From a virus, in the IMG/VR virus record IMGVR_UViG_3300046028_000691, positions 1 through 33,892 of that record: a stretch of DNA of 33,892 nt; one strand, written 5' to 3'. The notes under the pieces were generated by a model. It was not told the DNA's origin. It searched no databases and saw only the letters and a list, made by a program, of their open reading frames with translations. Numbering within the stretch: position 1 is the stretch's first letter; every line of letters begins with the position of its first letter. Position numbers and translations under genes: made by a program. Of the stretch, positions 2,933-27,279 are shown one piece after another.

Positions 2933-3346
2933 ATGGCGCATTTTGCACAACTTGACGTAAATAACGTCGTAACAGAAGTCATTGTTGTTAGTAACGATGC
3001 AATTAACGATTTGCCATTTCCAGAGTCGGAGCCGGTTGGTGTGGAGTTTTGCCAATCACTTTATGGTGCAAACACAATCTGGAAACAAACTTCGTACAAC
3101 GCTAATTTTCGTAAAAATTACGCTGGTCTTGGTTACAGTTATCGCGCTGACATAGACGCTTTTGTGCCTCCCCAGCCGTATCCATCATGGACTTTGAATG
3201 ACGAAACGGCCGAATGGGAAGCCCCTATTCCGTACCCGACAGATGGGAAAGCCTATGTATGGGATGAAAATAGTATGTCTTGGGTGCCATTGCCAATCTA
3301 TCCAGCAGGACTAGGACAAGATATGGAAAACAACGAAGTTCCATAA
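2933..3346 (+). CDS. Small conserved tail-associated protein, copy 1
   Basis: A 137-residue protein. The chosen start is the ATG at 2933, because the paralogue at 6795 begins with the same MAHFA(Q/L)LD sequence directly after the glycine-rich gene. It contains a conserved hydrophobic N-terminus, FPESEPVG, WKQTSYN.NFR.NYA and a Trp-rich C-terminal part (YPSW, YVWDENSMSWV). Proteins of this kind occur next to tail fibres in aquatic phages; the molecular role is not known. It could be a fibre cap or an assembly factor (inference from position). Its stop overlaps the next start (TAATG). Confidence 0.7.
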   Translation: MAHFAQLDVNNVVTEVIVVSNDAINDLPFPESEPVGVEFCQSLYGANTIWKQTSYNANFRKNYAGLGYSYRADIDAFVPPQPYPSWTLNDETAEWEAPIPYPTDGKAYVWDENSMSWVPLPIYPAGLGQDMENNEVP

Positions 3347-3900
3347 TGTTTTTTAACAAAAACAAAAAACTTGCGTTTATTACTATGCCAAAGTGCGCCA
3401 GCATTTCGGTGGCTGCTTTTCTTTTGCCTAATCAATTTAAAAAATTGTCCCACTCAAAACTGGTCAATCATCATCATATAAAATATCTAGATGCTGTAAA
3501 TTTGTATCCAAATCTCGTTAATTACAAAAAATACGCTGTTTTTAGAAATCCTTTAACCAAATTTGTAAGTGCGGCAAACCATGTTCGTAACATCACGCTA
3601 CCAAGCAATTACGATTATTTTGCAAAAAACATTTCAAGTTTTAAAGGGTTTGAGGGCACGTTGTTTGCGCCTCAAGTTGAGTTTTTAAAAGAGTCAAATT
3701 CTTCATTGATTGATTTTGATAACTTAAAAAATCAAATTGCTGAAGTTTTTGAGTTTGACCCTAACGGCCTTGACTTTCCGTATTTGAATAAAACGACTGT
3801 AGAGAGGCCTGCTATTAGTAGTTACGTTGAGTCATTTGTCCGCGACTACTACGCTGCCGACTATGAGTTTGCGAAGAATGCACTAGGTAAGGAATACTAG
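3346..3900 (+). CDS. Sulfotransferase-like protein (moron candidate)
   Basis: A 184-residue protein starting at the ATG that overlaps the previous stop as TAATG; an upstream in-frame start at 3280 would run inside the previous gene and is not preferred. Residues 12-21 (ITMPKCASIS) resemble the 5'-phosphosulfate-binding loop of PAPS-dependent sulfotransferases (PKxGTTS-like). Residues 64-76 (AVFRNPLTKFVSA) resemble the 3'-phosphate-binding RNP...S motif. Both motifs are in the expected order and the length fits small sulfotransferase-2-like proteins. The gene is visibly much richer in A+T than its neighbours, suggesting recent acquisition. It sits between two tail-fibre cassettes, so it may modify a glycan or fibre (inference). 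Enzymatic activity is unproven. Confidence 0.65.
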   Translation: MFFNKNKKLAFITMPKCASISVAAFLLPNQFKKLSHSKLVNHHHIKYLDAVNLYPNLVNYKKYAVFRNPLTKFVSAANHVRNITLPSNYDYFAKNISSFKGFEGTLFAPQVEFLKESNSSLIDFDNLKNQIAEVFEFDPNGLDFPYLNKTTVERPAISSYVESFVRDYYAADYEFAKNALGKEY

Positions 3901-4772: not shown

Positions 4773-5891
4773 ATGGCTACTTACAGTACAAATCTGGCCT
4801 TGACCCTTTTGACTACCGGCGAAGGCGCAGGTACATGGGGTAATACTACAAATACCAATCTTGGTACGCTGCTTGAGCAGGCCATCTCCGGCTACGTCAC
4901 TCAAGCCGTTGCTACGGGCACAGATACCACGCTGACTATTCCAAACGGCGCGACCGGTGTCGCCCGTAATATGTTTATCGAGTTGACTGGCACGGGTGGT
5001 ACTAACACTAACCTGATTGTCCCGGCTAACAAGAAGCTGTACTTCATCTATAACAATTCTACTGGTGCAGTAACGGTCAAGGTTACAGGGCAGACCGGCG
5101 TCTCTGTTGCAGCGGGTAGTAAAGTTATTCTTGTTTCTAACGGTACGGATATCGTCCAAGCAACAAGTTACCTGACTACCACTCCGTCTAGCCTATCGTT
5201 GACAAATCTGACGGCTACTTCTGCCACGATTACGACGCTGACTTCGACTTCGGCGGGGATTACTACTCTGACCGGCACCAGCATGAACGTTACGACGGCG
5301 ACTCATGCCTCAGCCAACATTACTCAGCTTCAATCTACTTCGGCTACGGTTACAAACCTCGGGTCTACTTCAGCCAACATCACGACTCTCACAGGTACGA
5401 CGGCCACTTATACCTCGGCTACGGTTACAAACCTCGGGTCTACTTCAGCCAACATCACGACTCTCACAGGTACGACGGCCACTTATACCTCGGCTACGGT
5501 TACAAACCTCGGGTCTACTTCAGCCAACATCACAACTTTAACCGGTACAAGTGCGACTATCACTAATATTCTTGATGGAAGCGGTCTAGTTCGTAACATA
5601 CCGCAAAATTCGCAGACCACCACTTACACGCTTCAAGCGTCAGATAACGGTAAGCACATTAGTACGACTAGCGGCGCTGTTACAGTCCCAAATAATACGT
5701 TCGCTGCTGGTAACGTGGTGTCTGTGTATAACAATTCCGCAGGTTCTATTAGCCTCAATATTTCAACCACCACTGCTTACGTAACAGGTACTAACACTAA
5801 TAGAACCGGAGTTACTCTTTCGACTCGCGGCATTTGCACCGTACTGTTTATTAACCCTTCGTACTGCATAGTCAGCGGAAATGTGAGTTGA
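4773..5891 (+). CDS. Tail fibre protein with TSANITTLTGT repeats, copy 2 (no S74 domain)
   Basis: A 372-residue protein. The N-terminal ~130 residues (MATYSTNLALTLLTTGEGAGTWG ... KKLYFIYNNSTGAVTVKV) are a recognisable phage fibre/tail attachment module. The middle is a Thr/Ser-rich shaft of TSANITTLTGT-type repeats shared with the fibre at the left edge. The C-terminal ~100 residues (YTLQASDNGKHISTTSGAVTVPNN ... NPSYCIVSGNVS) form a small terminal domain common in phage fibres. Unlike the first fibre it lacks an S74 chaperone. It contains a perfect 75-bp tandem DNA repeat. Its stop is immediately followed by the second glycine-rich gene, mirroring the first cassette. Confidence 0.8.
   Translation: MATYSTNLALTLLTTGEGAGTWGNTTNTNLGTLLEQAISGYVTQAVATGTDTTLTIPNGATGVARNMFIELTGTGGTNTNLIVPANKKLYFIYNNSTGAVTVKVTGQTGVSVAAGSKVILVSNGTDIVQATSYLTTTPSSLSLTNLTATSATITTLTSTSAGITTLTGTSMNVTTATHASANITQLQSTSATVTNLGSTSANITTLTGTTATYTSATVTNLGSTSANITTLTGTTATYTSATVTNLGSTSANITTLTGTSATITNILDGSGLVRNIPQNSQTTTYTLQASDNGKHISTTSGAVTVPNNTFAAGNVVSVYNNSAGSISLNISTTTAYVTGTNTNRTGVTLSTRGICTVLFINPSYCIVSGNVS
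5340..5533 (+). repeat. Perfect 75-bp tandem repeat, about 2.6 copies
   Basis: Copies at 5340-5414 and 5415-5489 are identical, and the first 44 bp of a third copy (5490-5533) are identical too. The unit begins tcggctacggttacaaacct and encodes 25 residues in frame, so copy-number changes lengthen or shorten the fibre shaft without frameshift. Absence of even silent differences indicates a very recent expansion (or an assembly artefact). Confidence 0.93.
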
Positions 5892-7648: not shown

Positions 7649-8133
7649 AAGTCTCCAAGGCCGCTATCGACATGATCAAACATCACGAGGGGGTACGGAC
7701 CAAGCCTTACCGCTGCCCTGCCCTTTTGTGGACTGTCGGTGTCGGCCATGTGATTGACCCTGCTCACGCTACGGTGAAGTATGAGGAGCGCAAGAATCTA
7801 CCGATACCCGCAGGCTGGGACCGGGTTATCACGATGGACGAGGTGGACCGGATACTTGCTGAAGACCTTCGTCGGTTTGAGCGTGGTGTGGTTCGACTTT
7901 GCCCTGCTTCTGTTGGCAATCAAGGAATCTTCGATTCTCTCGTCAGTTTTGCCTTCAACGTGGGTCTTGGCAATCTCCAACGTTCTTCCCTTCGGATGAA
8001 GACCAACCGGGGTGAACTGGAAGAAGCCGCTGACGAGTTTATGAAATGGACTAAGGCGGGTGGTAAAGTACTGCCGGGACTGATTAAACGGCGTATGGAC
8101 GAACGTGCGCTGTACTTGTCGGGGGTTATGTAA
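7645..8133 (+). CDS. Endolysin, GH24 lysozyme (muramidase)
   Basis: A 162-residue protein. The chosen start is GTG 7645, overlapping the holin stop (GTGA); this gives the usual N-terminus MKVSKAAIDMIKHHEG. The catalytic arrangement is Glu15 - 8 residues - Cys24 - 5 residues - Thr30 followed by VGVGH. This matches the GH24 E-8-D/C-5-T spacing with Cys in place of the common Asp. Later blocks (FDSLVSFAFNVGLGNL, LPGLIKRRMDERALYLSG) match the GH24 helical lobe. No signal or SAR segment is visible, so export presumably depends on the upstream holin. It hydrolyses the glycan strands of peptidoglycan at lysis. Confidence 0.9.
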   Translation: MKVSKAAIDMIKHHEGVRTKPYRCPALLWTVGVGHVIDPAHATVKYEERKNLPIPAGWDRVITMDEVDRILAEDLRRFERGVVRLCPASVGNQGIFDSLVSFAFNVGLGNLQRSSLRMKTNRGELEEAADEFMKWTKAGGKVLPGLIKRRMDERALYLSGVM

Positions 8134-10439
8134 TGCCACTTCAGAAGGTCGAATTCCGCCCCGGCGTCAACCGTGAAACTACCAACTACGCAGGCGAGGG
8201 GGGTTACTTCGTCGTAGATAAGGTGCGTTTCCGTGGTGGCTACGCCCAAAAGATCGGTGGCTGGATAAACTCTTCCACGATCCTGTCTACCTTTAAAGGC
8301 GTTGCCCGGTCGCTATGGAACTGGGTGACAATCGACGGACTTAACCTGCTGGGCGTCGGTACGAATCAGAAGTTCTACGTCGAATTAGGCGGTGAGTACT
8401 ACGACATCACCCCGCTTGGTAATTCCTTAAACCTGTCTCAAAACCCGTTTACGACTGTATCGGGTAGTAACTTTGTCACTGTTCTTGCCTCGGGGCATGG
8501 CTCGTCAGTGGGTACCTACGTTACCTTTTCTGGTGCCACTTCGGTAGGCAGTCTGACCCTAAATGGGCAGTTTGAGATCATAGAAGTTCCGGGCGATAAC
8601 TCGCTCGTGATCGTAACCCCGACTGCTGCTAGTTCATCTGCTACGGGTGGCGGTTCGTTAGTTATTGCCAGTATTGATATCGACGCAGGTACCGCTGTCT
8701 ATACGTCCAACGTCGGTTGGGGCGGTCCTCCGTGGGGATCAGGCGGTTGGGGTTCTTCAACTCCGCAGGGTGTTCCGCTGCGTTTGTGGTCACAGTTTAA
8801 CTACGGCAACGACCTGATCTTTGCTGAGAACAACGGCCCAATTTACTACTGGACTAACGACACCTCTACATGGGCACGAGCTATTACGCTTGAAGAGAAA
8901 GCTAACTCTGTACCTAAAACGACCACAACAGCAGCTTACGCTTCGGGTTCTGTCACGCTCGTCGTAGCTGATGCTACGGGTATTAACACCGGTTCAGTCA
9001 TCTCAGGCAGTGGTATTGTCTCAGGCACGTATGTCACTGCGGCATGGGATGGCAGCACTTCAGTCACTATCTCAACGGCTACAACGGCTTCCGCCACGGT
9101 TTCGGCTTTGAGCTTCAGCTATGCCGGACGGCATGTGCCTGATGAAACCGGGTTAATTATTGACTCTCCGGTTGACGACTTTACGGTTTGCTTTGGATCT
9201 AATCCTTACGACCCGACTAATTTCAGTACGGCGTTTGATCCGTTATTGGTGCGTTGGTCAGATGCAGACAACCCGTATGAATGGGTACCTGAAGTTACTA
9301 ACCAATCCGGTGAACAACGTCTTGCTAACGGCTCCAAGATCGTAACGGCGACAACTGCTCGTCAGGAAATTGTGGTTTGGACGGATACAGCTGTGTACTC
9401 GATGCAGTACCTCGGACCTCCGTTTGTGTTTGGGTTCACCCTGCTTGATCAGGACGTTTCGATTGCCTCTCAGAATGCGGTGATCAACGTCAACAACGCT
9501 GTGTACTGGATGGGCTTGGATAAGTTCTTCGTGTACGACGGTCGTGTAAATACGTTGCCCTGCACGATTCGCCAGCACATCTTCAGTACGTTGAATAAAG
9601 ATCAGATCGCACAGGTCATGTGCGGTAATAACGAAGCATTCAGTGAAATCTGGTGGTTCTACCCAAGCACGGGCAGCACGGTGAATGACACGGTAGTGAT
9701 CTACAACTACCTTGAAAACGTATGGTCGTACGGCAGCTTGAACCGATCTGCGTTCTCTCCGCAGAGTATCCGCGACTATCCGATGCTGTCGTTCAGCATC
9801 CAGACTTCTTACCTTGCGACAGACATCAATTCATCTGTCACTTCTATCGCTCTGCTTGAAGCTTCTGCTTATCCGCGATCAGGTACGGTACTGATTGATA
9901 GCGAGTACATTACTTACACAGGCGTTAGCAACGACACTCTGACTGGATGTGTGCGAGGTGCGAATAGCCCTGCTGGAGTGGCTTCAACGGCTGCGTCTCA
10001 CACGACGGGTACTACCGTTTCGATGACGGCACCGAATCAAGTGCTGTATCACGAAGTGGATTGGGATGATGTCTCGACGGGTGTGGCGCAGCCAATTACT
10101 TGCTTTATTGAGTCGTCTGACTTTGACATTGGCGACGGGCATAACTTTGGTTTCGTCTCCCGCATCATTCCGGACATCAAGTTCTTGGGATCTACGACCT
10201 CTTCGCCGTCAGTTACTATCTCGATCTATCCGCGTAACTATCCCGGCTCCGCGTACGGCACTCCTGATATAGAACAAGTTAATGCGACGGCAGTGCTGCC
10301 GTACGAGATCTATACCGAGCAGTTGTTTACTCGGGTTCGCGGTAGGCAGATGGCTGTACGTGTCGGGTCTTCTGGGCTTGGCGTGTCGTGGCAGGTAGGT
10401 GCGCTGCGTCTTGATATCAGGCCGGACGGTCGCCGGTAA
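8133..10439 (+). CDS. P22 gp10-like tail hub/nozzle or packaged-DNA stabilisation protein
   Basis: A 768-residue protein whose start overlaps the endolysin stop (TAATG). The N-terminus (MPLQKVEFRPGVNRETTNYA ... KVRFRGGYAQKIGGW) and the central block (VVWTDTAVYSMQYLGPPFVF ... NAVYWMGLDKFFVYDGRV) have the pattern of P22 gp10-type stabilisation/nozzle proteins, thought to be beta-propellers closing the podovirus connector. Two Ser/Thr/Val-rich insertions interrupt it (around residues 255-325 and 575-635), the latter resembling a small adhesion-like module (VLIDSEYITYTGVSNDTLTG). Family assignment is by pattern recognition only. A generic tail structural protein is the fallback. Confidence 0.6.
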   Translation: MPLQKVEFRPGVNRETTNYAGEGGYFVVDKVRFRGGYAQKIGGWINSSTILSTFKGVARSLWNWVTIDGLNLLGVGTNQKFYVELGGEYYDITPLGNSLNLSQNPFTTVSGSNFVTVLASGHGSSVGTYVTFSGATSVGSLTLNGQFEIIEVPGDNSLVIVTPTAASSSATGGGSLVIASIDIDAGTAVYTSNVGWGGPPWGSGGWGSSTPQGVPLRLWSQFNYGNDLIFAENNGPIYYWTNDTSTWARAITLEEKANSVPKTTTTAAYASGSVTLVVADATGINTGSVISGSGIVSGTYVTAAWDGSTSVTISTATTASATVSALSFSYAGRHVPDETGLIIDSPVDDFTVCFGSNPYDPTNFSTAFDPLLVRWSDADNPYEWVPEVTNQSGEQRLANGSKIVTATTARQEIVVWTDTAVYSMQYLGPPFVFGFTLLDQDVSIASQNAVINVNNAVYWMGLDKFFVYDGRVNTLPCTIRQHIFSTLNKDQIAQVMCGNNEAFSEIWWFYPSTGSTVNDTVVIYNYLENVWSYGSLNRSAFSPQSIRDYPMLSFSIQTSYLATDINSSVTSIALLEASAYPRSGTVLIDSEYITYTGVSNDTLTGCVRGANSPAGVASTAASHTTGTTVSMTAPNQVLYHEVDWDDVSTGVAQPITCFIESSDFDIGDGHNFGFVSRIIPDIKFLGSTTSSPSVTISIYPRNYPGSAYGTPDIEQVNATAVLPYEIYTEQLFTRVRGRQMAVRVGSSGLGVSWQVGALRLDIRPDGRR

Positions 10440-11087: not shown

Positions 11088-14000
11088 ATGAACGATAAGT
11101 ATCCTGCGGCGGGGTTAGCATCCCTTGTAGCCGCTCAAGGCCGTGGCGGGGACTCCACCCTCGTCCACATGAACCCCGAAGAAGTTCAGGTACTTAAAGA
11201 GTACGCAGCCGCTAACGGCTTACCCCTGACTTTCAACCCACAAACCGGGTTGCCGGAAGCATTTTGGCTAACGGATTTCTTGCGAAATACGTGGAAAGCG
11301 ATCAAACCGACCGTGACGAGCGTCGGTAACGCTATCATCAATAACCCTCAAACCACAGCCCTTCTAACCGGCGCTGCCTACGGTGCCGTCAAGGGTGATC
11401 TGCAAAAAGGTCTTGAGGCGGGTATGAAAGCCTACGCCGGGACTAAGTTGCTCGGCGGTATCACGGCTGGAATGCAGCAAGGCAGGAAGATCCCCGGCAT
11501 CGCCGGTCCTGTTGGCTATAAGGAAGCTGGTCGTGGTGCGGATGACTTCGGTGAGATTGCGCCGGGTCTTATGGACACTAAGCCCACGGTTGAGGCTCCG
11601 CTCGGTAGAAGTCCCGCCACGGGCGGTCTTGATGCTCTGCTAGGTCGAGTGCTGGGCGGCGGTCAGACGGGTACTACGCAGCAAGGACAGGCTCAGCAAG
11701 GACAGCAGGGGCTGTTCCGTTCAGGCGATCCGATCATGGACGCTATCATGCTCTATGCCACTAAGAAGGCTGAGCAGAAGATCACGGGGCAGCGTCCGGG
11801 CATCCCGACTCCGGAGCCGACGCAGTATCGCAACGTGCAGTACAGCCGTGGGCAGGTCAATCCGCTGTTCTTTACGCAGCCGGGACAGCCGTACTTTATC
11901 GGTGGTGGATATAGCGACCAAGGGACTACGACACAGTACCCTGACTACACTCGTCCTCCGACTACGACTCAGCAGCCGGGGCAAACGACTGGACAAAGCC
12001 AGCCTCAGCCGCCGCCAAGACCCCAGCCACCCAGTCCACAAGATGACCGCCGCTACGGGCTACAGATGGCCTCGGGCGGTATTGCTTATGCGGAAGGTGG
12101 TGCAACGGAGACTGAAGAAGAAAGGAGGCGGAAGTATTTCGAGAATCTCCGCCCTTTCGCTCCCGCCCTGTCTGACTATTATCGCGCTGGTGCCACAGGC
12201 ACCGGTTCAGCGCAGGGCGACAATTTAAACCGCGATCCGATGACCCGTCTGCCTCAAGTACCGGCAGGTGGCATAGCCACTGGGGACATCGCAGATTGGT
12301 ATCGTTCACTACTTGTCCCTCCCACGGCCCGTGCGCCGGTAGATATGGGGGATTATTTCTCAACCACGCAGAGGCGTGGTGCGACCGACTATGGTCCGGT
12401 AGTTAAATATCCGGATGGTCCGACTCCGCCACCTCCGCCTCCTTCACCCCCTCCTCCGCCAGAATTAAAATGTCCTGACGGAAGTGCGCCAGATTTAACC
12501 CGTATTGTTCAGGGACTTGATCCGTGTCCGACTACTGGGGGTACTAAAACTTGCCCTGATGGGTCAATTATTCCCTCAGATCAGGAATGCGGTACAAGTA
12601 ATACTTGCCCGGATGGGTCTGCACCTGATCCGACGACTGGTCAGTGCAGGGGTACAGGGACTAAGACTTGTCCCGATGGTTCTGTCATTCCTGCGAATCA
12701 AGAATGTAAAGGCACAGAAAAGTGTCCGGATGGGTCGCTACCTGACCCTGTAACGGGTTTGTGCAGGGGAACGGAAAAGTGCCCAGATGGGTCTCTACCC
12801 AATCCTGTAACCGGCCAATGTGCTGGTGAAGAAAAGTGCCCAGACGGGTCTCTACCTGACCCCGTGACTGGCAAGTGTAAAGGTACGGAAACCAAAACCT
12901 GTCCTGACGGGTCAGTAATCCCTGTGGGTCAAGAGTGTTCAGGCGAGAGAGACGAACCATGTCCCGATGGATCTTTGCCTGATCCTGTAACGGGTAAATG
13001 TAAAGACGGTCCTGATAGCCCGGAGACTAAGACCTGCCCGGATGGGTCCGTAATTCCTGTTGAGCAAGAGTGTAAGCCGGGTCCGCCGCCACCTCCTCCG
13101 CCACCTCCGCCGCCTCCGCCACCTCCGCCACCGCCGCCCCCACCTCCGCCGCCGTACTTAATCTGCGATGACGGAAGCATTGTCTATCCTGAGTTGGGAG
13201 AAAAGTGTCCAAAGTTGCCTGATCAGGAATGCAAACCTAATCAGAAGAAAATGACGGACCCGTACACGGGCGAACTCCGTTGCGTGGACTTCTGTCCTCC
13301 GGAACTTATTTACGACACCAATTTAGATAAATGCCTTTGCCCGAATGGAAAAGCGCCGGGACCGGATGGTAAGTGTGTAACAAATCCACCACCTCCACCT
13401 CCGCCTCCACCGCCTCCGCCGATAGACAAATGTCCTCCGGGTACTAAGCCTGATCCGGTGCTGGCTGCGCTTGGCTTTATTGTTTGTGTTCCTGCGGAAG
13501 ATGATGACCCGCCGCCTCCGCCACCGCCTCCGCCACCGCCTCCGCCACCGCCTCCTCCGCCACCACCCCCGGCGAAGCCAAAATGTAATGAGGACGAGAC
13601 GCAAGATGGCGATATGTGCTACGGCACATGCCCGGATGGTTCGACCTATACACGTGGTGTTGGTTCTCCGTCTCCGTGCGGTTCTCCAAACCTGCCTCCA
13701 CGAAATAGACCGTCGTTTGACATGATTCGTTGCTGGGGTCCGGATGGTATGCCGTATCTCTCGACGTTGGAGGTGGGCTGTTTCCGTCCGGGTTCTCGCT
13801 TGAGCAGATACTGCTCTAGTACCGATAACTCATGCTATGAGTCAGATGACACTGCGCCAGAACCTAATGTTGATACAGTTATGGCCTCCGGAGGCGTCGT
13901 GAAGAAGACTAAGAAGTATCAGATGGGCGGTATTGCCTCTTTGCCTGCTCGTGATCCTCGTCTGGGTGGAGCAGTAAACCCGGTTGATGGTTACAACTTC

Positions 14001-14330
14001 GGCTTTGCCCAAGGCGGTATGCCGTCGATGCCTGAATATCAGGCAGGTGGTAAGCTCCTGCGTGGACCGGGAGATGGTATGTCTGACGATATCCCTGCCG
14101 TAATCCGAGGTAAGGGGGTGCAGAGAGCGGCTTTGGCAGACGGTGAGTTTGTCATCCCCGCCGATGTGGTGTCGCATCTTGGCAACGGATCAACCGAGGC
14201 AGGTGCGAAAAAACTGTATAAAATGATGGAGCAGATTCGTCGTGCGCGAACGGGGACCGGCAAGCAAGCCCCCCAAGTAAACCCCGATAAGTTCCTGCCC
14301 CGTGCAACGCCCGCCAAGAAGCGGCGATAG
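11088..14330 (+). CDS. Large Pro/Cys-rich modular virion protein (unknown function)
   Basis: A 1080-residue protein. Residues 1-125 are helical (MNPEEVQVLKEYAAANG, LTFNPQTGLPEAFW, AYGAVKGDLQKGLEAGMKAY), followed by Gln/Gly/Pro-rich linkers. Around residues 325-340 is the motif ASGGIAYAEGG. Residues ~462-662 hold ten CPDGS motifs in an array. Three pure proline runs follow (24, 12 and 21 residues), separated by further Cys-containing segments. The C-terminal ~150 residues include LLRGPGDGMSDDIPAVIRG, LADGEFVIPADVVSHLGNG and KKLYKMMEQIRRARTG, a block I recognise as conserved in large virion proteins of aquatic phages. With the next three genes it probably forms the internal/ejection protein set. 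The polyproline runs imply strong dependence on EF-P for translation. No enzymatic motif seen. Confidence 0.6.
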   Translation: MNDKYPAAGLASLVAAQGRGGDSTLVHMNPEEVQVLKEYAAANGLPLTFNPQTGLPEAFWLTDFLRNTWKAIKPTVTSVGNAIINNPQTTALLTGAAYGAVKGDLQKGLEAGMKAYAGTKLLGGITAGMQQGRKIPGIAGPVGYKEAGRGADDFGEIAPGLMDTKPTVEAPLGRSPATGGLDALLGRVLGGGQTGTTQQGQAQQGQQGLFRSGDPIMDAIMLYATKKAEQKITGQRPGIPTPEPTQYRNVQYSRGQVNPLFFTQPGQPYFIGGGYSDQGTTTQYPDYTRPPTTTQQPGQTTGQSQPQPPPRPQPPSPQDDRRYGLQMASGGIAYAEGGATETEEERRRKYFENLRPFAPALSDYYRAGATGTGSAQGDNLNRDPMTRLPQVPAGGIATGDIADWYRSLLVPPTARAPVDMGDYFSTTQRRGATDYGPVVKYPDGPTPPPPPPSPPPPPELKCPDGSAPDLTRIVQGLDPCPTTGGTKTCPDGSIIPSDQECGTSNTCPDGSAPDPTTGQCRGTGTKTCPDGSVIPANQECKGTEKCPDGSLPDPVTGLCRGTEKCPDGSLPNPVTGQCAGEEKCPDGSLPDPVTGKCKGTETKTCPDGSVIPVGQECSGERDEPCPDGSLPDPVTGKCKDGPDSPETKTCPDGSVIPVEQECKPGPPPPPPPPPPPPPPPPPPPPPPPPYLICDDGSIVYPELGEKCPKLPDQECKPNQKKMTDPYTGELRCVDFCPPELIYDTNLDKCLCPNGKAPGPDGKCVTNPPPPPPPPPPPPIDKCPPGTKPDPVLAALGFIVCVPAEDDDPPPPPPPPPPPPPPPPPPPPPAKPKCNEDETQDGDMCYGTCPDGSTYTRGVGSPSPCGSPNLPPRNRPSFDMIRCWGPDGMPYLSTLEVGCFRPGSRLSRYCSSTDNSCYESDDTAPEPNVDTVMASGGVVKKTKKYQMGGIASLPARDPRLGGAVNPVDGYNFGFAQGGMPSMPEYQAGGKLLRGPGDGMSDDIPAVIRGKGVQRAALADGEFVIPADVVSHLGNGSTEAGAKKLYKMMEQIRRARTGTGKQAPQVNPDKFLPRATPAKKRR
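12471..13073 (+). repeat. CPDGS cysteine-motif array (10 copies)
   Basis: Ten in-frame copies of Cys-Pro-Asp-Gly-Ser occur within about 200 residues; one more lies at about 13629. Two repeat types are interspersed: CPDGS(L/A)P(D/N)P(V/T)TG-x-C (12 residues between cysteines in CPDGSLPDPVTGKC) and CPDGS(V/I)IPxxQEC (11 residues between). The paired cysteine spacing suggests many small disulfide or metal-binding loops. The DNA copies have diverged at silent sites, so the array is not brand new. Confidence 0.9.
13083..13154 (+). repeat. Polyproline-encoding tract of 24 CCN codons
   Basis: Twenty-four consecutive proline codons, mainly CCG/CCT/CCA with one CCC, run from 13083 to 13154. Two further runs occur in the same gene: 12 prolines at 13386-13421 and 21 prolines at 13509-13571. 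A shorter interrupted run lies near 12424-12460. The mixed codon use shows that the repeat is under protein-level rather than purely DNA-level maintenance. Confidence 0.93.
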
Positions 14331-14341
14331 AGGGTACAAAG

Positions 14342-15361
14342 ATGTCTACTACGACTCCGACCACTACAACCCAGATTACGTCCAACATCCCAGATTGGGC
14401 GAAAGGGTACGCCACTGACTTACTTGGGTTTGGTGCGGCACTTACGTACCCCAAACTAAATCCGCAAACAGGAAAACTTGAGTCTGGCTTTAAGCCTTAC
14501 GGCGGTGAACTCGTTGCCGGGGAAAGTCCCCTTCAGCGTCAGGCATATAATGACCTGTCCCGTATGCAGGTCTCTCCGCAGACCTCTCAAGCAACTGGCT
14601 TCACAGGGCTGGCCGCGCTTCAGGCGCAGGATCTTGCTAGATACAACCCTCTCCAGCAACAACAGTATTACCAGTCTGCTTATGATCAGCCGGGTGGTCT
14701 TAATAAATATATGTCGCCCTATATGCAGGGCGTCGTTGAGCAGCAAAAGAGTCAAGCGATTGCAGACTACGGTCGGCAACTTCCGGGCATGGCCGCTGCC
14801 GCTGCTCGTGCTGGCGCAAAGGGTGGTACCCGTGAGGCTCTTGTCCGTGCCGAAGGTCAGCGCAATCTAAGCGAACAGTTACAGAACATTCAGGCGACGG
14901 GCCTTCAAAACGCTTTCCAACAAGCGTCACAACAGGCAATGGCTGATGCTGCTACAAAAGCGCAGTACGGTCTTGCTGGTACGCAGTTGGGCGAACAGTC
15001 TCGCCAGTTCGGTGCCGGTCTTGGCTTGCAGGGTTTACAACAGCAGTTGGCTGCGGCAGGTCAACTTGGTCAGTTGGGTCAACAGCAGTATCAACAGCAG
15101 GCCGGTATCCTCGGTGCTCAACTTGGTGCTGGTGCTCAACAACAAGGACTCAAACAAAAGATGTTGGAGTCGAACTACCAACGCTTCATTGATGAGATGT
15201 CGTACCCGTACAAGCAGTTGGAGTTTATGTCGAACTTGCTGCGCGGCACTCCGTCGTCTGCGGAAACACGTAACGTATATACACAAGCCCCGAGCACTTT
15301 CCAGCAAATAGCGGGTTTGACTGGCGGTCTTGGTGGACTGTTTGGATCTTTCGGGAGTTAA
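14342..15361 (+). CDS. Gln/Ala-rich helical virion protein (putative internal/ejection protein)
   Basis: A 339-residue protein preceded by a GAGGG ribosome-binding site. The N-terminus is Thr-rich (STTTPTTTTQITSNIPDWA) with YPKLNPQTGKLESGFKPYGG. The central region (YMSPYMQGVVEQQKSQAIAD ... AARAGAKGGTREALVRAEG) is a recurrent pattern in marine and freshwater phage genomes. It is followed by a long Gln/Gly/Ala-rich helix and a conserved C-terminal part (FIDEMSYPYKQLEFMSNLLRG) ending in a Gly-rich tail. There is no catalytic motif. Position between two large structural genes suggests a role in the internal core or DNA ejection, analogous to T7 gp14 (inference). Confidence 0.55.
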   Translation: MSTTTPTTTTQITSNIPDWAKGYATDLLGFGAALTYPKLNPQTGKLESGFKPYGGELVAGESPLQRQAYNDLSRMQVSPQTSQATGFTGLAALQAQDLARYNPLQQQQYYQSAYDQPGGLNKYMSPYMQGVVEQQKSQAIADYGRQLPGMAAAAARAGAKGGTREALVRAEGQRNLSEQLQNIQATGLQNAFQQASQQAMADAATKAQYGLAGTQLGEQSRQFGAGLGLQGLQQQLAAAGQLGQLGQQQYQQQAGILGAQLGAGAQQQGLKQKMLESNYQRFIDEMSYPYKQLEFMSNLLRGTPSSAETRNVYTQAPSTFQQIAGLTGGLGGLFGSFGS

Positions 15362-15364: not shown

Positions 15365-16744
15365 ATGATTGGTCCGGTAAGCGAAACTGGTAAGACGATG
15401 CTCTCTTCGCTCCAAGGAGCGATGGCTAAGGGTATGCCCGTTGATCAGGCAATCACCTACGTTAAGAGCATGGCGCAGCAGGGTGTCGCCCCGCTGGTTG
15501 ATCTCTATGCGTTGCTAAAACAATTTGAGCGGATGAAGCAGCCTCCGACTCAAGCTCCGCAAGGTGGCAACCTTAAAGATCAACTTAACAATCTTGAGTC
15601 TTCGCTTGTCGGTGGACTTGGCGGGATGCCGCCGCGTGCTATGCCTCCTTCACCGGAGATGCCTCCTGAAATGCAGGGTCTTGCTTCGTTAGATGCGGGG
15701 GCAATGGAGAATCCGCAAGGCTTCAACATGGGCGGTATCGTGGCTTTTGCAGAGGGCGGTCAGCCTGAAGCACCGAAGTCCATCACGCCCCAACTGTATA
15801 CGCTGCCTAAGTCGTATGAAGAGTTAGCTCAACAAGCGATGCGTGAGCAGATGGCGCTTGAGACTGCGGAAGGACGCGCTGCATTCTTGGCTAAACGTGA
15901 TGCGGAACTCAAAGAAGCGGGGCTTGGTCAGTATGCTAAGTCTCTTGAAATGCGTGATGAGTTGGCTCAAGAAACTGCTAAACGAGCCGAGTTACTGCCC
16001 GGTGAAGAAGCTGCACTTAATGAAGAGTCATTCTGGGCAGACGTAGCCGGTTCCGACGCAGGCGATCTCGTGTCTGCTATGGCTAAGAGTAAGGCCAAGG
16101 CAGTTGAGCGCAAACGCGCCAGCCGTGAGAAAGTTCAGGCCGCCAAGGAGAAGGCAGCGGAAGAGAAAGTTCTGCGCCAAGAAGCCCGCGAAGCTCTTAA
16201 GCAGGGTGATATGGAGTCTTACAAGACGAAGCTCGCGGCTGCTAACACACTGCGAGATACGAAAATTAACGACTACGTTAAAGCTGTTGAGGGTGACAAA
16301 GACCGAGAAGACGCAGCGGCAAGGGCACGGGAATTGGCTCGGATTCAGAAGGACTCGCCGTTGGCTCGGGCGCAAGAAGCGTTGCGTACTACTCCGATGT
16401 ACTTGGAGAACGGTGAGCCGAACCCGACTTATGGTGAGATTCGCCGTCTCATAAGCGATATGAATGCAGGTCGTGGCGGTGCAGGGAATCGGTCACAGAT
16501 AAGTTACTATCAAAATATCTATAGAAACGCGACCACTGCGCTAAGAAAGGCTCAAGAGGCTGATGCTGTATCTGGTACGGCTGAGACTAGAGCAGCACTT
16601 CAAGCAGCACGGGCTGCTGAAGCCAAAGCACGACGAGACTATGAAGCGGCTTCGTTGGGGCAGGACTTTGAAGCACCTACCGGAGGAGTATCAGATCCTA
16701 CACAGATGTCGGATGAAGAATTGCTGGCCGCTCTGAATCAGTAA
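15365..16744 (+). CDS. Coiled-coil virion protein (putative internal/ejection protein)
   Basis: A 459-residue protein beginning four bases after the previous stop. The N-terminal ~60 residues are helical (MAKGMPVDQAITYVKSMAQQ, VDLYALLKQFERMKQPP). A Pro/Met-rich linker leads to FNMGGIVAFAEGG, which echoes ASGGIAYAEGG in the 1080-residue protein. The centre (residues ~140-340) is a long, highly charged Ala/Glu/Lys/Arg-rich helix typical of a coiled coil. The C-terminus is acidic (QMSDEELLAALNQ). No enzyme motif. It is likely a core or scaffold-like partner of the neighbouring large virion proteins; exact function unknown. Confidence 0.5.
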   Translation: MIGPVSETGKTMLSSLQGAMAKGMPVDQAITYVKSMAQQGVAPLVDLYALLKQFERMKQPPTQAPQGGNLKDQLNNLESSLVGGLGGMPPRAMPPSPEMPPEMQGLASLDAGAMENPQGFNMGGIVAFAEGGQPEAPKSITPQLYTLPKSYEELAQQAMREQMALETAEGRAAFLAKRDAELKEAGLGQYAKSLEMRDELAQETAKRAELLPGEEAALNEESFWADVAGSDAGDLVSAMAKSKAKAVERKRASREKVQAAKEKAAEEKVLRQEAREALKQGDMESYKTKLAAANTLRDTKINDYVKAVEGDKDREDAAARARELARIQKDSPLARAQEALRTTPMYLENGEPNPTYGEIRRLISDMNAGRGGAGNRSQISYYQNIYRNATTALRKAQEADAVSGTAETRAALQAARAAEAKARRDYEAASLGQDFEAPTGGVSDPTQMSDEELLAALNQ

Positions 16745-16749: not shown

Positions 16750-19700
16750 ATGGCTAACCTGCAACTTTTGCTGGAAGCAGAGCGTCGTGGCATCCTGCCG
16801 CCTGATAAAGCCGCACTGTTACAAGAAGCGCGTAAGCGCGGTCTAGTCCCCGGTACTAAAGCCGCTCCGCCTCAACCCGAAACCACTTCCAACCCGTTCA
16901 TGGGCGCATTGGGTCGTGGTGCAGAACTTCTTGGGTCAGGTGTTGAACTGGCGGCCCGCGCTGGTGAATCCATCGGTGACTTCATCGCTGAGAAGGCTCC
17001 TGTCCTTGATACCCGCGTTGTTGCAGACAAAGAGGGCGTACGTGTAGAGCGTCCATCTCTGAAAGAAGTTCGCAAAGAAAATCAGATGCAGTACATGTTC
17101 GACTGGGCGAACAGTCTGCGCGAGTGGGGCCGAGAGATTAATTACGAGCCGAGTACCAAACTCGGTGACTTGGCTGATAACCCATTGACTGCTGTGCCGT
17201 TCATCGTTGAGCGCGTAATTACGTCTGCTCCGGACATGGCTGCGGCTGTGACTGTACCGCTTCCGTACATTGCCACACGGTCTAACGAGATCCTGAATGA
17301 ACGTCTGGCTAATGACAACAAAACGCTAGATCAAGCAACCGTTGCTGACGTAGCTGCCGCTACTGGCGCGGCCATCGTTGAAGGAAGTCTTGAGCGATTT
17401 GCTACAGGACGCTTGCTGGAGAAGGGTGCGGAAGCCGCTACCCGTGCCGGTCGTATTGGTAAGGAAGCCGGGGTTCAGGCAGGTACTGAAGCCACCGAAG
17501 AAACTGCTGCTTATGCTGGTGCCACTGCGGGTACCGAGGCAGGGTTTGATCCCCGCACTGCGGGACTTACTGCGCTTGAAGCAGCCATCGTTGGCGGCGG
17601 TCTCGGTGCCGGTGTGCAGGGTGTTCGTGAATTGGTTGGGCCGGGTGAAACTCCGCCTGAAGTACCGCCTGTTGCGCCTGCCGCTACAACTGTCACGCCC
17701 CCAACTGCGCCTACTCCTCCCCCGGCAGCGGCGGCTGTGCCGACCACGGTCGATGAATTACTTGATGCTCCGCCTAAAGTGGCAGCGGAAGACGCGCCTG
17801 AGAATGTTCGTTACGAGCCGACAACGCTAAACAACGAGCAGATCAACAATGAAATCGACAAGATGGAGGACTTCCAAGAGCAGATCGCGGATCTCCTCTT
17901 CAACCCGCAGCAACTTGAGCAACAGGCCGTACTGGCTCGTATCCCGCCAGACGTATTCCGTAACAACTTACAGAATGACTTTGATCAAGTTACTACACGG
18001 CTAGATGTTTTCTACAAGCATCTGAATGGTACGTTGCCGCCCGTTAAGCCTACGATTACGCAGGACCAAGTGACGGCAGCGGGAGTTTCACCTGACGTTG
18101 CCAAAGCTCTAAATGTACAGCCCACTGTCACTCCTACTACCCCTGTCCAGCCGGGTGTCTCTGATGCAGCCGCAACAACAGCACCGCCAATTACTCAGCC
18201 GCCTGTCGGTGGAACAGTTGGAAGAGGCGCTAATGTGCCTCCATCTGGACTTACTACCCAAAGACAAATTGCTCCGGAAACTCCCGTCGCAGGACTGGAA
18301 CCTGCTGCACGAACTCCTAGTGATGTTGTTCCGGGAGAAGGAGCAGTCGAGCCTCCACTAAACGAAGATCAGCTATTTGAAGAAGGCGAGCGAATCAAAA
18401 ACGAAGCTCGATCTTTACTTACTGAAGACGGCAAATTACCCGCTGTTGGTACCCCTGAGCGTGAAAGATACAGCGCGTTAGCCCAACAATTTAAAAACTT
18501 AAAACAGGCTTGGACTGAAAGGTTTGGGAAAGAACCTGCTGCACCCGCTGCACCAAAAGTCCCAAGAGTTCAGTACAAAGACAAAGGCGACCGTTCTGAA
18601 CAAGGTCTTGAGTTTTACTACGATGGACTTTATTACAAATTGCTGCCAATGGCCGGTAAGCATGATCAGCCTATCCTTGATGTGTACAAGGATAAAAGAA
18701 TGATTCGATTGGTAGGCAATCATTACGCTAACAATGAACGAGGGCAGGTTGATGGTCGCGTTGGTGATGCAAGTGAAATTGACCAGTACAACTTACCGCC
18801 AGAAATATCCAAGGCGATAAAAGACTATTTGTCTTCCTCTGGTATTGGCTTAACGTCCGATCCTAGGCGGCTACCGAAGTCGTCTGTTGATGCGGCTGGT
18901 AAACGCCTTGCCGATGCTGTCAATGCGGAGATGGCGAAGTATGAAACTCCGCTACGTACCTCTGAACAACGTCGTCCCCGCACGGCTGAAGAGGCCGAAC
19001 GGCAAGAGTTTGAAGACTTCTTTGCAGGTGAAGCGGAACTTATCTACAGCACTCGCTCGTATGAGGCTGAACCGAAGCCCGATGGTCCGTTTACAGGTGC
19101 CAAGGGCAACGTAGTTGTATCTGAGAGCGTTGATCCGCGCTTTGAGAAGTTGCTGTCGGGCTTGATGAAAACGCTCGGCATGGGAGATGTGCGGGTATTT
19201 TTGGCAACGAAGAAGGATATGTTGCCGCCCGGAGCGTCGTATGCAGACGCGATGGACAAAGCCAAGACCCAGTACGGGATGTCTGGTGACTATGCCATCA
19301 ATAGCCTTTTGGCTGATCTGCGTCCCAAGGGTACGGTTGGTATCTCGGCGCAGTGGGGCAAGACCAAAGACTTCATTATTGTTTACGACTCTTCTAGGAC
19401 GTTAGAGCAGAACATCGAAACGATTGCTCACGAACTGGGTCACGTTGTACAGATCACTGCTTATGACAACGCATCAAGCGACGTAAAGGCAGCGATCCAA
19501 GAAGAGTACGAGAAGTGGTTTAAAGCCAATAAAGGCAAGACCGCACGTGACATGGTGCGGGCTACGCGCAATCGAGTGACGGCACAAGAAGCCATCATCT
19601 ACCCGCCTGAGTACAAATTCTCGGGTAAGGATCTTGAGTACTGGACTTCGTTCAGCGAGTGGTTTGCTGACAACGTATCCAAGTGGGCTACGACTAATAA

Positions 19701-22620
19701 GAAGCCCATGACTGTCGTGCAGAAGTTCTTTGCCGACATAGCTCGTAAGATCCGCAAGATTGTCTCTGAGATAACCGGTAACAAGTTCGTTCCGAACAAA
19801 GCCGTGGCTGACTTCTTGGACAAGATGGGTCCGGAAGATATCTCTACATGGCTCAAGTCCGACACGATGCCGGGGATGCGTACCAACTACATGCTGAATG
19901 CGGTTGGTAACAGAGTTAAGAATCTGCCTAGCCTGACCCGCAACGTTTACGAAGCGGTACGCAACATCCTCGACTCGACCCGTATTACCGACAATATGCG
20001 CTCGGGTATCTATGCGTTCCTGTCTCTGCCTCAGCAGGTACAGTTATTTGCGAAGGAACTACCGAAGCTCCGTGATCTGCTCAACGTGGTCAACGTACGG
20101 GCAAGTTCGCTCAAGGATCGCAAGGAAGTTTTGGATAGAAATGTTCGTAAGTGGAACGACGTTATTAGCGATAAGACTCAGAAAATGCGGGATGATTTCT
20201 ACCGTATCGCGCACGAATCCACGCGCTTGGTAGGTGCTGATGGCCGCATGGGTATCGACTTCAATGACCCGGCTGAGGCAAACAATCCGCTCACCAAAGA
20301 GTTTAACGCCCTGCCTGCTGACTTGAAGAAGGTCTACTTTGAGATGTTGCAGAGCTACAAGGACATGTCGGATGAGTACTTAAAGCTCATCTCAAAGAAC
20401 CTGTCCAAGCGTGCGGCACGCAAACTTGAGCGGCAGATGGCGCAGAAGCGTCTAAAGGTCTACCTACCCTTGTTCCGTGAGGGTGACTACTGGCTGCGCT
20501 ACCAAGACCAGAATAACGAAACTGTGGTTATGTCGTTTAAGTCTAACCGCGAACGTGAAATGGCTATCAAGGAAGCAGTTGCGGCGGGTGCTGCCCAGTC
20601 CAGTATGCAGCCGTTCTCTCGCGTTGAAGGTGCGTTTGAACAGGCAGGTGGCGGTCCGTTCTTCTTTAATATTCTGGACGAGTTGGATAAGCGGGGCGCT
20701 CCGCAAGCGACTAAACGCGCCTTGTTTGAGATGTATTTGGATTTGATTCCTACTCAGTCGGTGCGACAGCAGTACCGTACCCGTGATGGGTACAAGGGTT
20801 ATGAGTCTGATCTAATGAATGTTTACGCCACGGTTGCATCCCGTATGGCTAATCAGCTTACCAATCTGGAATACGTACCTGAGATTGACAAGGTATATAA
20901 CGAGATTGAGAAAGAGGCTAAGACCGCCGCTGCTCAGTCCAAGAACCTTGCGGTCGATAAGTTGATGCGGAACCTGAAGTTGCAGATGGATTACCTCCGT
21001 GATCCTGCCAACAGCCCTCTGGTCAACACGCTCTCTTCGTTTAGTTACTACTGGTACATCATTGGTAACGTCTCGACGGCCTTGATCAACCTGACGCAGT
21101 TGCCGATGGTGGTCTACCCGATGCTTGCCGGTAAGTACGGCAACGTTGATGCCACGAAAGCAATGGCTGACGCCCAGAAACAGTATATGAAGGGCGGGTG
21201 GGATAATGACAACATTCCCGGCGGGGCGAAGCGGTTCCCGTCTGACTTCTCGTTTGGTATCGGCCTACCGGCTAATTCTCCGCTAAAGAAGTTGTACGAC
21301 GCTGCTGTACGGCAGAGTGCGATCCGTCGCTCGACGGGGTACGACGTTATCGAAGGCAGGAAACAGAACTACGGGATGGGGGATTACATCGGTCTGAAGG
21401 CTAAGACCGAGCAGATACTGGGTTGGGTATTCCAGAACTCTGAGCGTTACAACCGTGAAATCACGTTGATTGCAGCGTTCAACCTAGAGATGAAGAAGAA
21501 TGGCGGCAAGGTAGACGAAGCTATCAACACCGCTATCGACTTCATTAATGATACTCACGGTACAACCCTGACTGAAACTTCGCCACGAGTATTCCAGAGC
21601 GGGTTTGGTAAGGTGGCGTTCACCTTCAAGAACTTCGCCCAGACGATGATTTATCTGCAAGCCAAGTTGTTACGCGATGCAGTCAAGGGCGAGACTCGGG
21701 AAGTTCAGAAACTTGCTGCCAAGCAGTTCTTGGGTATCTCCGCGATGGCCTTCACGTTTGCAGGTATTCAGGGAATGCCGTTCTTCGGGGCCGGGACCGT
21801 GATGGCTGACATACTGCATGACATTCTTGGTGACGAGGACGAACCGTGGGATTCAGCAGCAGCCGTGCGTAGTGCGGTAGGTTCAATACCGAATAAAGGG
21901 CCGGTCAACGAACTTCTGATGATGGATATTGCTTCACGTACTGGCTTTGCCAACTTGCTGTGGAAGGACGACGACAAGCGTATTGAGGAAGTAGGCCCGA
22001 TTCTGTTCGCAATGGAGCAGATCTTCGGTCCATCCTACGCTGCGGCTATGGGCATATTCAGAGGATATAAGGATTACAAGGAAGGCCATTACGACCGTGC
22101 AGTTGAGGCGGTAACGCCGTCGTTCATCCGAAACAACTTAAAGGCATATCGTTACTACATGCAAGGTTCTCTAACTAGAGATAAAGAAGTTCTATACGAT
22201 GACTTCAATAAGTACGAACTGTTTATGCAGACTCTTGGCTTCACGCCAGTTGAAGTAGCGCGTCGTTCAGAACTTGCCGGGGATAAGGCGAAGAAAATTA
22301 AGGATTTAGAGAACCGAAAAAAGGCTCTCCTAGATAGGATGTACTTGGCTCGTATTAGCGGGGATGACGAAGGCAAAAAGGAAGCCAAGGCTGCGATTGA
22401 TAAGTTCAATGAGAACGAGACCGTCAAGAAGTACGGTATGCGTATCACGCCAGAAGGCATCATCAGTTCTTACAATACGCGACGTAATCGCAGTGCACAG
22501 TCTACGTTCGGTATTTACTCGCCGCCGAAGATGCGTCGTGCGTTGAGCGAAGAGTTTGAAGAGCCGCCCCCGCCGATACTGAAGCGGATGTTCGGCAAAG
22601 AAGAAGAGAAGAAAGACTAA
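16750..22620 (+). CDS. Giant virion protein (1956 aa) with zinc metallopeptidase motif
   Basis: This is the largest gene in the window. Residues 1-35 are a helical hairpin-like motif (LLLEAERRGILPPDKAALLQ). Residues ~130-300 are Ala/Gly-rich and amphipathic, followed by a Pro/Ala/Thr-rich linker. Around residues 800-1020 is a metallopeptidase-like domain: HELGH at 894-898 with a downstream SEWFAD whose Glu970 is a plausible third zinc ligand. The C-terminal ~900 residues are mostly helical, with hydrophobic stretches (SFSYYWYIIGNVSTALINLT; FLGISAMAFTFAGIQGMPFF), and resemble C-terminal regions of large polyvalent phage proteins. As the last late gene and of this size, it is probably an internal protein ejected with the DNA (inference). 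The protease motif is visible; its activity and substrate are unknown. Confidence 0.65.
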   Translation: MANLQLLLEAERRGILPPDKAALLQEARKRGLVPGTKAAPPQPETTSNPFMGALGRGAELLGSGVELAARAGESIGDFIAEKAPVLDTRVVADKEGVRVERPSLKEVRKENQMQYMFDWANSLREWGREINYEPSTKLGDLADNPLTAVPFIVERVITSAPDMAAAVTVPLPYIATRSNEILNERLANDNKTLDQATVADVAAATGAAIVEGSLERFATGRLLEKGAEAATRAGRIGKEAGVQAGTEATEETAAYAGATAGTEAGFDPRTAGLTALEAAIVGGGLGAGVQGVRELVGPGETPPEVPPVAPAATTVTPPTAPTPPPAAAAVPTTVDELLDAPPKVAAEDAPENVRYEPTTLNNEQINNEIDKMEDFQEQIADLLFNPQQLEQQAVLARIPPDVFRNNLQNDFDQVTTRLDVFYKHLNGTLPPVKPTITQDQVTAAGVSPDVAKALNVQPTVTPTTPVQPGVSDAAATTAPPITQPPVGGTVGRGANVPPSGLTTQRQIAPETPVAGLEPAARTPSDVVPGEGAVEPPLNEDQLFEEGERIKNEARSLLTEDGKLPAVGTPERERYSALAQQFKNLKQAWTERFGKEPAAPAAPKVPRVQYKDKGDRSEQGLEFYYDGLYYKLLPMAGKHDQPILDVYKDKRMIRLVGNHYANNERGQVDGRVGDASEIDQYNLPPEISKAIKDYLSSSGIGLTSDPRRLPKSSVDAAGKRLADAVNAEMAKYETPLRTSEQRRPRTAEEAERQEFEDFFAGEAELIYSTRSYEAEPKPDGPFTGAKGNVVVSESVDPRFEKLLSGLMKTLGMGDVRVFLATKKDMLPPGASYADAMDKAKTQYGMSGDYAINSLLADLRPKGTVGISAQWGKTKDFIIVYDSSRTLEQNIETIAHELGHVVQITAYDNASSDVKAAIQEEYEKWFKANKGKTARDMVRATRNRVTAQEAIIYPPEYKFSGKDLEYWTSFSEWFADNVSKWATTNKKPMTVVQKFFADIARKIRKIVSEITGNKFVPNKAVADFLDKMGPEDISTWLKSDTMPGMRTNYMLNAVGNRVKNLPSLTRNVYEAVRNILDSTRITDNMRSGIYAFLSLPQQVQLFAKELPKLRDLLNVVNVRASSLKDRKEVLDRNVRKWNDVISDKTQKMRDDFYRIAHESTRLVGADGRMGIDFNDPAEANNPLTKEFNALPADLKKVYFEMLQSYKDMSDEYLKLISKNLSKRAARKLERQMAQKRLKVYLPLFREGDYWLRYQDQNNETVVMSFKSNREREMAIKEAVAAGAAQSSMQPFSRVEGAFEQAGGGPFFFNILDELDKRGAPQATKRALFEMYLDLIPTQSVRQQYRTRDGYKGYESDLMNVYATVASRMANQLTNLEYVPEIDKVYNEIEKEAKTAAAQSKNLAVDKLMRNLKLQMDYLRDPANSPLVNTLSSFSYYWYIIGNVSTALINLTQLPMVVYPMLAGKYGNVDATKAMADAQKQYMKGGWDNDNIPGGAKRFPSDFSFGIGLPANSPLKKLYDAAVRQSAIRRSTGYDVIEGRKQNYGMGDYIGLKAKTEQILGWVFQNSERYNREITLIAAFNLEMKKNGGKVDEAINTAIDFINDTHGTTLTETSPRVFQSGFGKVAFTFKNFAQTMIYLQAKLLRDAVKGETREVQKLAAKQFLGISAMAFTFAGIQGMPFFGAGTVMADILHDILGDEDEPWDSAAAVRSAVGSIPNKGPVNELLMMDIASRTGFANLLWKDDDKRIEEVGPILFAMEQIFGPSYAAAMGIFRGYKDYKEGHYDRAVEAVTPSFIRNNLKAYRYYMQGSLTRDKEVLYDDFNKYELFMQTLGFTPVEVARRSELAGDKAKKIKDLENRKKALLDRMYLARISGDDEGKKEAKAAIDKFNENETVKKYGMRITPEGIISSYNTRRNRSAQSTFGIYSPPKMRRALSEEFEEPPPPILKRMFGKEEEKKD

Positions 22621-26883: not shown

Positions 26884-27279
26884 TCACTTACTGGCTTTAC
26901 GCACTGAAACACCGTACTCACGCATCACATTTACTCCCGGCGGTAAACCGTCCATAGCGGTCTCCGAAAGGAATTGCTTAAAGTTGCTCTGATGGATGCG
27001 TCTCTCAAGCAACTGAACTGCCTCAGCATCTAAAACGAACTTGTAGAAATTCTCCCAGTCTTGGCAGAAGAAACGTTCGTTCAACTTCCGCATGACTGTG
27101 CCGTGCTTCGTTTTGATACTGTCAGCATTGACTGCATTACACATCTCAAGCATGACTGCTTCCAACTTAGCCATGTCTTCTTTCAACTTGGCATCTGCTA
27201 TCTCGTACTCGCGGAGCAACTTATCGCGCTCCGAGCGTATTAACAAATACGCTTCAACTAATTCATCTGTGTTACCCAT
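26884..27279 (-). CDS. Conserved coiled-coil protein of the replication operon
   Basis: A 131-residue protein whose start overlaps the helicase stop by 8 bases. The N-terminal half is a charged coiled coil (RSERDKLLREYEIADAKLKE). It is followed by ADSIKTKHGTVMRKLNERFF and a conserved C-terminal block (DWENFYKFVL, LLERRIHQSNFKQFL, LPPGVNVMREYGVSVRKASK). The coiled coil followed by an S-x-K-T-x-x-G-T segment is reminiscent of Gp157-like phage proteins, but the match is only of general layout. No catalytic motif. Function unknown. Confidence 0.55.
   Translation of the reverse strand: MGNTDELVEAYLLIRSERDKLLREYEIADAKLKEDMAKLEAVMLEMCNAVNADSIKTKHGTVMRKLNERFFCQDWENFYKFVLDAEAVQLLERRIHQSNFKQFLSETAMDGLPPGVNVMREYGVSVRKASK

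Follow-up and report, generated by a model that had tools for sequence, protein, structure and literature searches.

Anatomy of the CP protein

The window analyzed in this work is a viral DNA stretch of 33,892 nt (IMG/VR record IMGVR_UViG_3300046028_000691, positions 1-33,892), and our subject is the product of a single open reading frame (ORF) located at 11088-14330, which we refer to as CP, a name used for the proline/cysteine virion-module protein. The original prediction, made from the sequence before any database search, held that this ORF encodes proline runs of 24, 12 and 21 residues together with a cysteine array built on CPDGS motifs, and these are the elements found in its translation. 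The two interspersed repeat types that it described are also real, one being CPDGSxPDPxTGxC (C-x12-C) and the other CPDGS[VI]IPxxQEC (C-x11-C). Its count of ten CPDGS motifs holds for the array (amino acids, aa, 462-650), but the total of exact copies is eleven, with one more at aa 848, and cysteine pairs are also present between and after the proline runs. All 38 cysteines of CP fall within aa 462-916.

When the residues of CP were shuffled 5000 times, the longest proline run obtained was 8 (mean 3.7) and CPDGS appeared at most once. The possibility that the tracts are assembly artefacts of low-complexity DNA, which the original prediction had itself named as something that would count against it, is unlikely, because their codons are a mixture of CCG, CCT, CCA and CCC, the longest tract spans 72 bp, relatives have different tracts at the same places, and one relative allele recurs unchanged in two metagenomes (L002 and L003; L numbers designate the sequences compared here), where its flanks diverge. 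A stretch of 72 bp is short enough to fit inside a typical short read. On the basis of the shuffles, the mixed codons and the independent relatives, we rejected chance and artefact as the origin of the tracts. Contigs of relatives do break in this gene, as 19 of 27 end inside it when about 7.5 were expected, so the repeat numbers from such assemblies should be treated with care.

Long proline runs as such are not unique to CP, and the idea that they are was also rejected. At least 120 stretches in IMG/VR contain 20 or more consecutive CCN codons, the proline frame being the longest ORF in 33 of the 80 retrieved, and runs reach 54 residues in the longest local ORF. Viral contigs L142, L126, L124 and L150 have runs of 54, 47, 73 and 40 codons, respectively, which in L142, L126 and L150 lie within the longest local ORF (528, 490 and 762 aa), that of L150 with 28 Cys. 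Separately, in a 108-aa ORF of L255 (IMGVR_UViG_2775506874_000002), FTICPDGSFVGGSS is repeated six times in tandem and the end motifs of the CP family are missing.

The cysteines of the CP family occur in pairs

We found that the number of cysteines is even in all 15 distinct full-length Cys-bearing members of the family (20, 22, 24, 26, 38, 44, 68, 72 or 78), while their N- and C-terminal domains have none. Counting pairs in sequence from the first Cys, the loops enclosed by a pair are 6-23 residues long (median 12, n=283), and the gaps between pairs range from 1 to 225 residues. Low-complexity runs are located between pairs in 65 of 65 cases and never within one. Fifteen incomplete members, which were not used to derive this rule, follow it with six runs between pairs and none inside; these sequences were trimmed to the start codon, and two apparent exceptions came from cysteines upstream of the start. 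Since the members are related and the repeats add Cys in twos, the 15 proteins are not 15 independent trials; at about 11 collapsed lineages, all-even parity has p ~0.0005 under random parity. Pairing of the cysteines is thus strongly indicated, and its simplest reading from the sequence would be a series of disulfide-closed loops that alternate with spacers. Within the IMG/VR matches obtained, no long ORF outside the CP family has a triple CPDG array.

Conserved ends flank an exchangeable middle

The N-terminal domain has a family-wide core, GLASL..GRG.D..LVHM.P.EV..NP.TG, and is 51-99% identical among Cys-bearing members. An alignment of its first 240 aa covers 34 members, Cys-free ones included, with L-V-H-M and N-P-x-T-G invariant. 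Environmental phages very commonly encode the C-terminal domain, for which IMG/VR gave at least 595 matching stretches, and its homologue in the cultured Synechococcus phage MinM2 is a short protein (294 aa). On the tree of the C-terminal domain, the Cys-bearing state requires just 2-4 changes across bootstrap trees, which makes it a clustered trait and not scattered noise. An extra domain (..VNTKEFGD.AL.NYWKA.DQGRGFG..) was observed between the middle and the C-terminal domain in L027 and L029, of which one is Cys-bearing and the other Cys-free. The structure model of full-length CP has a mean predicted local distance difference test score (pLDDT) of 40; its N-terminal domain is modeled as helical (pLDDT 61), the AlphaFold model of the Cys loops is hairpin-like at low confidence only, and a PDB search with the Cys array returned only an E 0.07 match to an LDL-receptor-related protein. 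Genome scans for the host yielded just a weak match in an Acidobacteriaceae metagenome-assembled genome; this contig, L258 (JADCJL010000196.1), is the sole one from a bacterial genome in which a relative of the N-terminal domain was seen (54% over ~50 aa), and could be a hint of the host or a binned viral contig.

The middle, on the other hand, varies widely. Relatives have from 0 to 29 copies of CxDG[ST] in this region, or another array, CPEGFRRNPETGVCEPI, and their spacers may be polyproline, (GPP)n, (PT)n, (PA)n, (EP/KP)n, (EKPPV)n, (ARKAEE)n or (GGGT)n. The Gly-Pro-Pro repeats of L014-L016 and L018-L020 have no counterpart array in the CP of the window, and L046/L047 contain TonB-like (EP/KP)n and TolA-like (ARKAEE)n spacers. 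In L049, a long EKPPV array (~30 repeats) lies between Cys pairs. This range of spacers (GPP, PT, PE/PK, EKPPV, ARKAEE, GGGT) suggests that the feature that has been kept is extension, and not proline itself. The proline tracts differ in length among relatives (Table 1); in L005 the first two long ones are absent and the third is kept at 19 prolines. Identity to the window falls in the middle region to 0.36 (L005) and 0.46 (L002), compared with more than 0.9 in most flanking bins, and several relatives keep their long tracts as pure proline while third codon positions differ.

Three relatives (L095, L097 and L108) are 92% identical in DNA to the window from 7.2-7.7 kb up to position 11190 (CP codon 34), beyond which they encode a Cys-free CP; DNA similarity returns only at 14136, at 73%, and their ejection gene has diverged as well. 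This indicates that CP changes with the ejection side, and that Cys/proline and Cys-free alleles are swapped in cassette form, accompanied by diverged ejection genes. Relatives without the proline and Cys segments had been named in advance as evidence that would count against the prediction, and here the outcome is mixed: alleles free of both do exist, even at 92% upstream identity, but the close relatives that reach into the middle all keep Cys pairs and repeat spacers. The array is therefore not essential to the core role of the gene.

CP is encoded in the nozzle-to-ejection block of a short-tailed phage

The features of CP and of the genes that surround it are listed in Table 1.

Table 1. 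Features of the CP gene and its neighbors in the window.
Feature	Position	Strand	Remarks
Tail nozzle homologue	8133..10439	+	phrog_3287; PDB nozzle chains 8zkk/8zkm E ~1e-7, 9nwi E 5e-15
Small conserved gene between nozzle and CP, 204 aa	10439..11053	+	synteny
CP	11088..14330	+	1080 aa
CP N-terminal domain, aa 1-461, Cys-free	11088..12470	+	core motif, then Gly/Ala-rich helical stretch
PPPPPPSPPPPP spacer upstream of the first Cys of CP	12426..12461	+	
CP array of ten two-Cys loops, aa 462-662, both repeat types	12471..13073	+	
CP 24-proline run	13083..13154	+	28 in L002, 23 in L017, absent in L005
CP four two-Cys loops, aa 693-763	13164..13376	+	
CP 12-proline run	13386..13421	+	9 in L002, 12 in L017
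CP two-Cys loop, aa 782-800	13431..13487	+	
CP 21-proline run	13509..13571	+	27 in L002 and L017, 19 in L005
CP four two-Cys loops, aa 833-916, CPDGSTYTRGVGSPSPC among them	13584..13835	+	
CP C-terminal domain, aa 917-1080, Cys-free, GPGDGMSDDIPA..ADGEFVIPADVVSHLGNGST	13836..14327	+	
DNA-ejection-protein homologue, no Cys	14342..15361	+	phrog_4287 E 9e-11
g15365, 459-aa protein of the same module, no Cys	15365..16744	+	synteny
Giant protein, 1956 aa, PLxRFG domain, no Cys	16750..22620	+	NF032893; phrog_10089; probable giant ejected protein

The CP gene has the nozzle upstream and the phrog_4287 homologue downstream, which places it in the part of the phage genome that runs from nozzle to ejection genes. 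The order of nozzle, small gene, CP, DNA-ejection protein, g15365 and giant was found whole or in part in most of 118 loci, among which two cultured phages, MinM2 and Caulobacter phage RW, have it in part. It is close to that of P22 (gp10-gp26-gp14-gp7-gp20-gp16). A separate block of fibre genes is located at 3-1922.

Elsewhere in the window, a 75-bp tandem unit (2.8 copies, 96% identical) was observed at 5336-5548, inside a 372-aa ORF (4773-5891) beside tail-fibre genes. At 3280-3900, in the fibre gene block, a 206-aa ORF matches phrog_3347 (galactose-3-O-sulfotransferase, E 5e-7). Amid reverse-strand replication genes, a 131-aa ORF at 26884-27279 on the minus strand matches phrog_13900 (minor head protein), a PHROG label that may be wrong.

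The replication proteins of the window contain 1.1-3.2% Cys. None is present in the 2754 residues of the ejection homologue, g15365 and the giant taken together (0 of 1956 for the giant alone), and relatives show 6 in 29,074 residues for the ejection gene and 3 in 16,197 for g15365. As controls, we examined T7 gp15 and gp16, with none in 2065 residues, and P22 gp7, gp20 and gp16, with none in 1309; the nozzles have 5 in 794 (T7) and 7 in 472 (P22). Podovirus ejection proteins form a conduit across the periplasm, an oxidising space (PMC8954989). This pattern is suggestive of proteins that enter the periplasm either avoiding Cys or, as in CP, carrying it only in pairs, and the fact that all five model proteins are Cys-free raises the possibility of a general rule for phage proteins that enter this compartment.

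A possible role of CP as an ejected strut

Considering the anatomy of CP, the pairing pattern, the interchange of spacers, the synteny and the swapping of alleles, all of which are displayed by the sequences, the reading that we tentatively prefer, with somewhat less than even confidence, is that CP is an ejection-block virion protein of environmental short-tailed phages that is ejected and reaches across the periplasm as a strut of disulfide loops and spacers. The conserved N- and C-terminal domains would dock with partner proteins, and the middle would be the strut, variable in length and sequence, in which disulfide-closed two-Cys loops are strung between extended spacers. CP would exit the capsid together with the ejection proteins and extend across the oxidising periplasm, bridging part of the envelope, where closure of the Cys pairs would render the chain protease-resistant and partly stiff. 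Its reach would be set by the spacers, like that of TonB by its proline rod and that of TolA by its helix. Polyproline II rises 0.31 nm per residue, so that the 57 prolines of the three long runs would measure ~18 nm in that conformation. We infer from these data the presence of CP in the virion, its ejection, the formation of the disulfides and their periplasmic site.

Several observations weigh against this proposal. Some spacers, such as GGGT and GD-rich ones, are flexible, and slippage can lengthen repeats in the absence of selection. Cys-free alleles serve the same core job, which would make the strut optional. Pfam and NCBIfam contain no family for CP and PHROGs none that is confident; Foldseek gave no match (E at least 0.48) for the pLDDT-61 model of the N-terminal domain. 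That domain has no segment of transmembrane strength in the window CP (maximum hydropathy 0.62), and we considered membrane insertion by it to be unsupported. Moreover, T7 gp14 has one Cys, and the scaffold and needle proteins of P22 are Cys-free as well, so the Cys-free signature is not specific to ejection. Finally, CP could be located outside the virion.

The main rival of the ejected strut is an external stalk, although we judge it unlikely. CP would then stay on the virion surface or tail tip as a fibre or needle-like stalk, its disulfides forming after lysis in the oxidising medium outside, and the variable strut would position an end domain or evade binding. Such a role would agree with the location of CP one small gene after the nozzle, near the position of the P22 tail needle gp26, and with its hypervariability, which suits an exposed part; collagen-like GPP repeats, as present in CP relatives, are also known from phage tail-type proteins (PMC3368898). 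However, neither end of CP resembles a fibre or receptor-binding domain, the same genome has its own fibre block, and CP alleles switch with the downstream ejection genes and not with the nozzle.

It is rather improbable that the middle of CP is a largely neutral, slippage-born low-complexity insert between two functional domains, with no specific mechanical role. Variation in repeat number among close relatives, the breakage of contigs at this region and the existence of Cys-free alleles would all be expected of such an insert; even Cys counts in every full-length member, zero Cys elsewhere and the exclusion of runs from the loops (65 of 65, plus 6 of 6) would not, nor would the purity of long proline tracts in several relatives despite differences at third codon positions.

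Metal binding is a frequent use of Cys in proteins synthesized in the reducing cytoplasm, and the Cys modules might in principle be zinc or iron knots, but this is very doubtful. In 7 of the 15 full-length members the Cys count is not a multiple of four (2 mod 4), which argues against Cys4 metal sites, the C-x11/12-C loops of the array lack the CxxC knuckle typical of zinc sites, and CP has no match to a zinc family.

Polyproline stalls ribosomes when elongation factor P (EF-P) is absent and the tracts do separate the Cys modules, but the idea that they act mainly as EF-P-dependent pauses timing folding or limiting CP expression is the least credible of all, because relatives do without long proline runs: the longest are of 4 in L044 and 3 in L045, and other relatives have GPP, PT or AEK repeats in place of the tracts. 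What is conserved is therefore not stalling. Ten related virus records contained no EF-P homologue (EF-P was found in most control bacteria), and a dependence of CP expression on host EF-P is plausible but generic, as it follows from general knowledge of polyproline stalling.

The suggestion of the original prediction that CP is a virion protein with a stiff polyproline spacer carrying disulfide or metal knots survives in part: a spacer of proline rods with Cys knots is supported and CP is probably a virion protein, whereas metal knots are disfavored, polyproline is dispensable and GGGT spacers are flexible. A bolder extension, which we consider unlikely in its full form, is that the strut is modular, with a reach tuned by swapping TonB-like, TolA-like and collagen-like spacers between disulfide loops, and that repeat and cassette exchange would adapt injection to the thickness of the envelope. 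Whatever its role, the CP gene is hypervariable and a place where short-read assemblies of these viruses break, and its family offers dozens of natural designs of disulfide/polyproline modules. The even-Cys rule may serve as a sequence signature of phage proteins that enter an oxidising compartment, which the Cys-free ejection proteins of T7 and P22 make testable across phages.

Comparison with known systems

The literature search found no phage protein of this design, in agreement with the original prediction, which knew of no such phage system. What appears to be new, with respect to the family libraries and papers searched, is a protein that combines conserved end domains with paired-Cys loops and interchangeable spacers, and parts of this design recall other systems. 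The C-terminal motif region SDDIPA..DGEFV bears a weak resemblance to tape measure proteins (E 0.01-0.23; E 0.01-0.09 for their C-terminal motif, e.g., phrog_3547 and phrog_7025), below significance, and CP differs in its setting, which is that of a podovirus: the window has a nozzle gene, and no long tail genes were seen in it. Collagen-like tail proteins of phages and prophages share Gly-Pro-Pro with some CP relatives, but the end domains of CP are unrelated to fibres. Cnidarian minicollagens combine Cys-rich modules, polyproline and Gly-X-Y repeats with disulfide bonding, their cysteine-rich domain, which flanks the Gly-X-Y repeats, being CX3CX3CX3CX3CC with six Cys (PMC4863159). CP and its relatives likewise join Cys modules with polyproline, and in some relatives Gly-Pro-Pro, in one chain; however, its loops have two Cys at x11-x12, the window CP has no GXY array, and there is no homology, so the resemblance is convergence at most.

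The ejection proteins of podoviruses (T7 gp14/gp15/gp16, P22 gp7/gp16/gp20) resemble CP in their post-nozzle neighborhood, the gene after CP matching a DNA-ejection PHROG, and the Cys-free composition of the module around CP is like that of T7 gp15/gp16 and P22 gp7/gp20/gp16. Unlike CP, these proteins have no Cys (save the one in T7 gp14), proline or Cys repeat struts have not been described in them, and CP has no sequence or fold match to gp7/gp16/gp20 or gp14/gp15/gp16 in PHROG, Pfam, PDB or Foldseek searches. Domain II of TonB, a Glu-Pro/Lys-Pro polyproline II rod, and domain II of TolA, a Lys-Ala-Glu helix, are mutually unrelated, sequence-divergent spacers that span the periplasm (PMC10666116, PMC10771500). 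CP also has an extended repeat domain between two end domains, and both spacer types occur among its relatives. It differs from them in having no N-terminal transmembrane anchor and no TonB/TolA C-terminal domain (no Pfam match), in the addition of paired-Cys loops and in being encoded by a phage. If CP is ejected, it would be the phage counterpart of the TonB and TolA struts, and its family a natural library of interchangeable spacers that reach across the periplasm.

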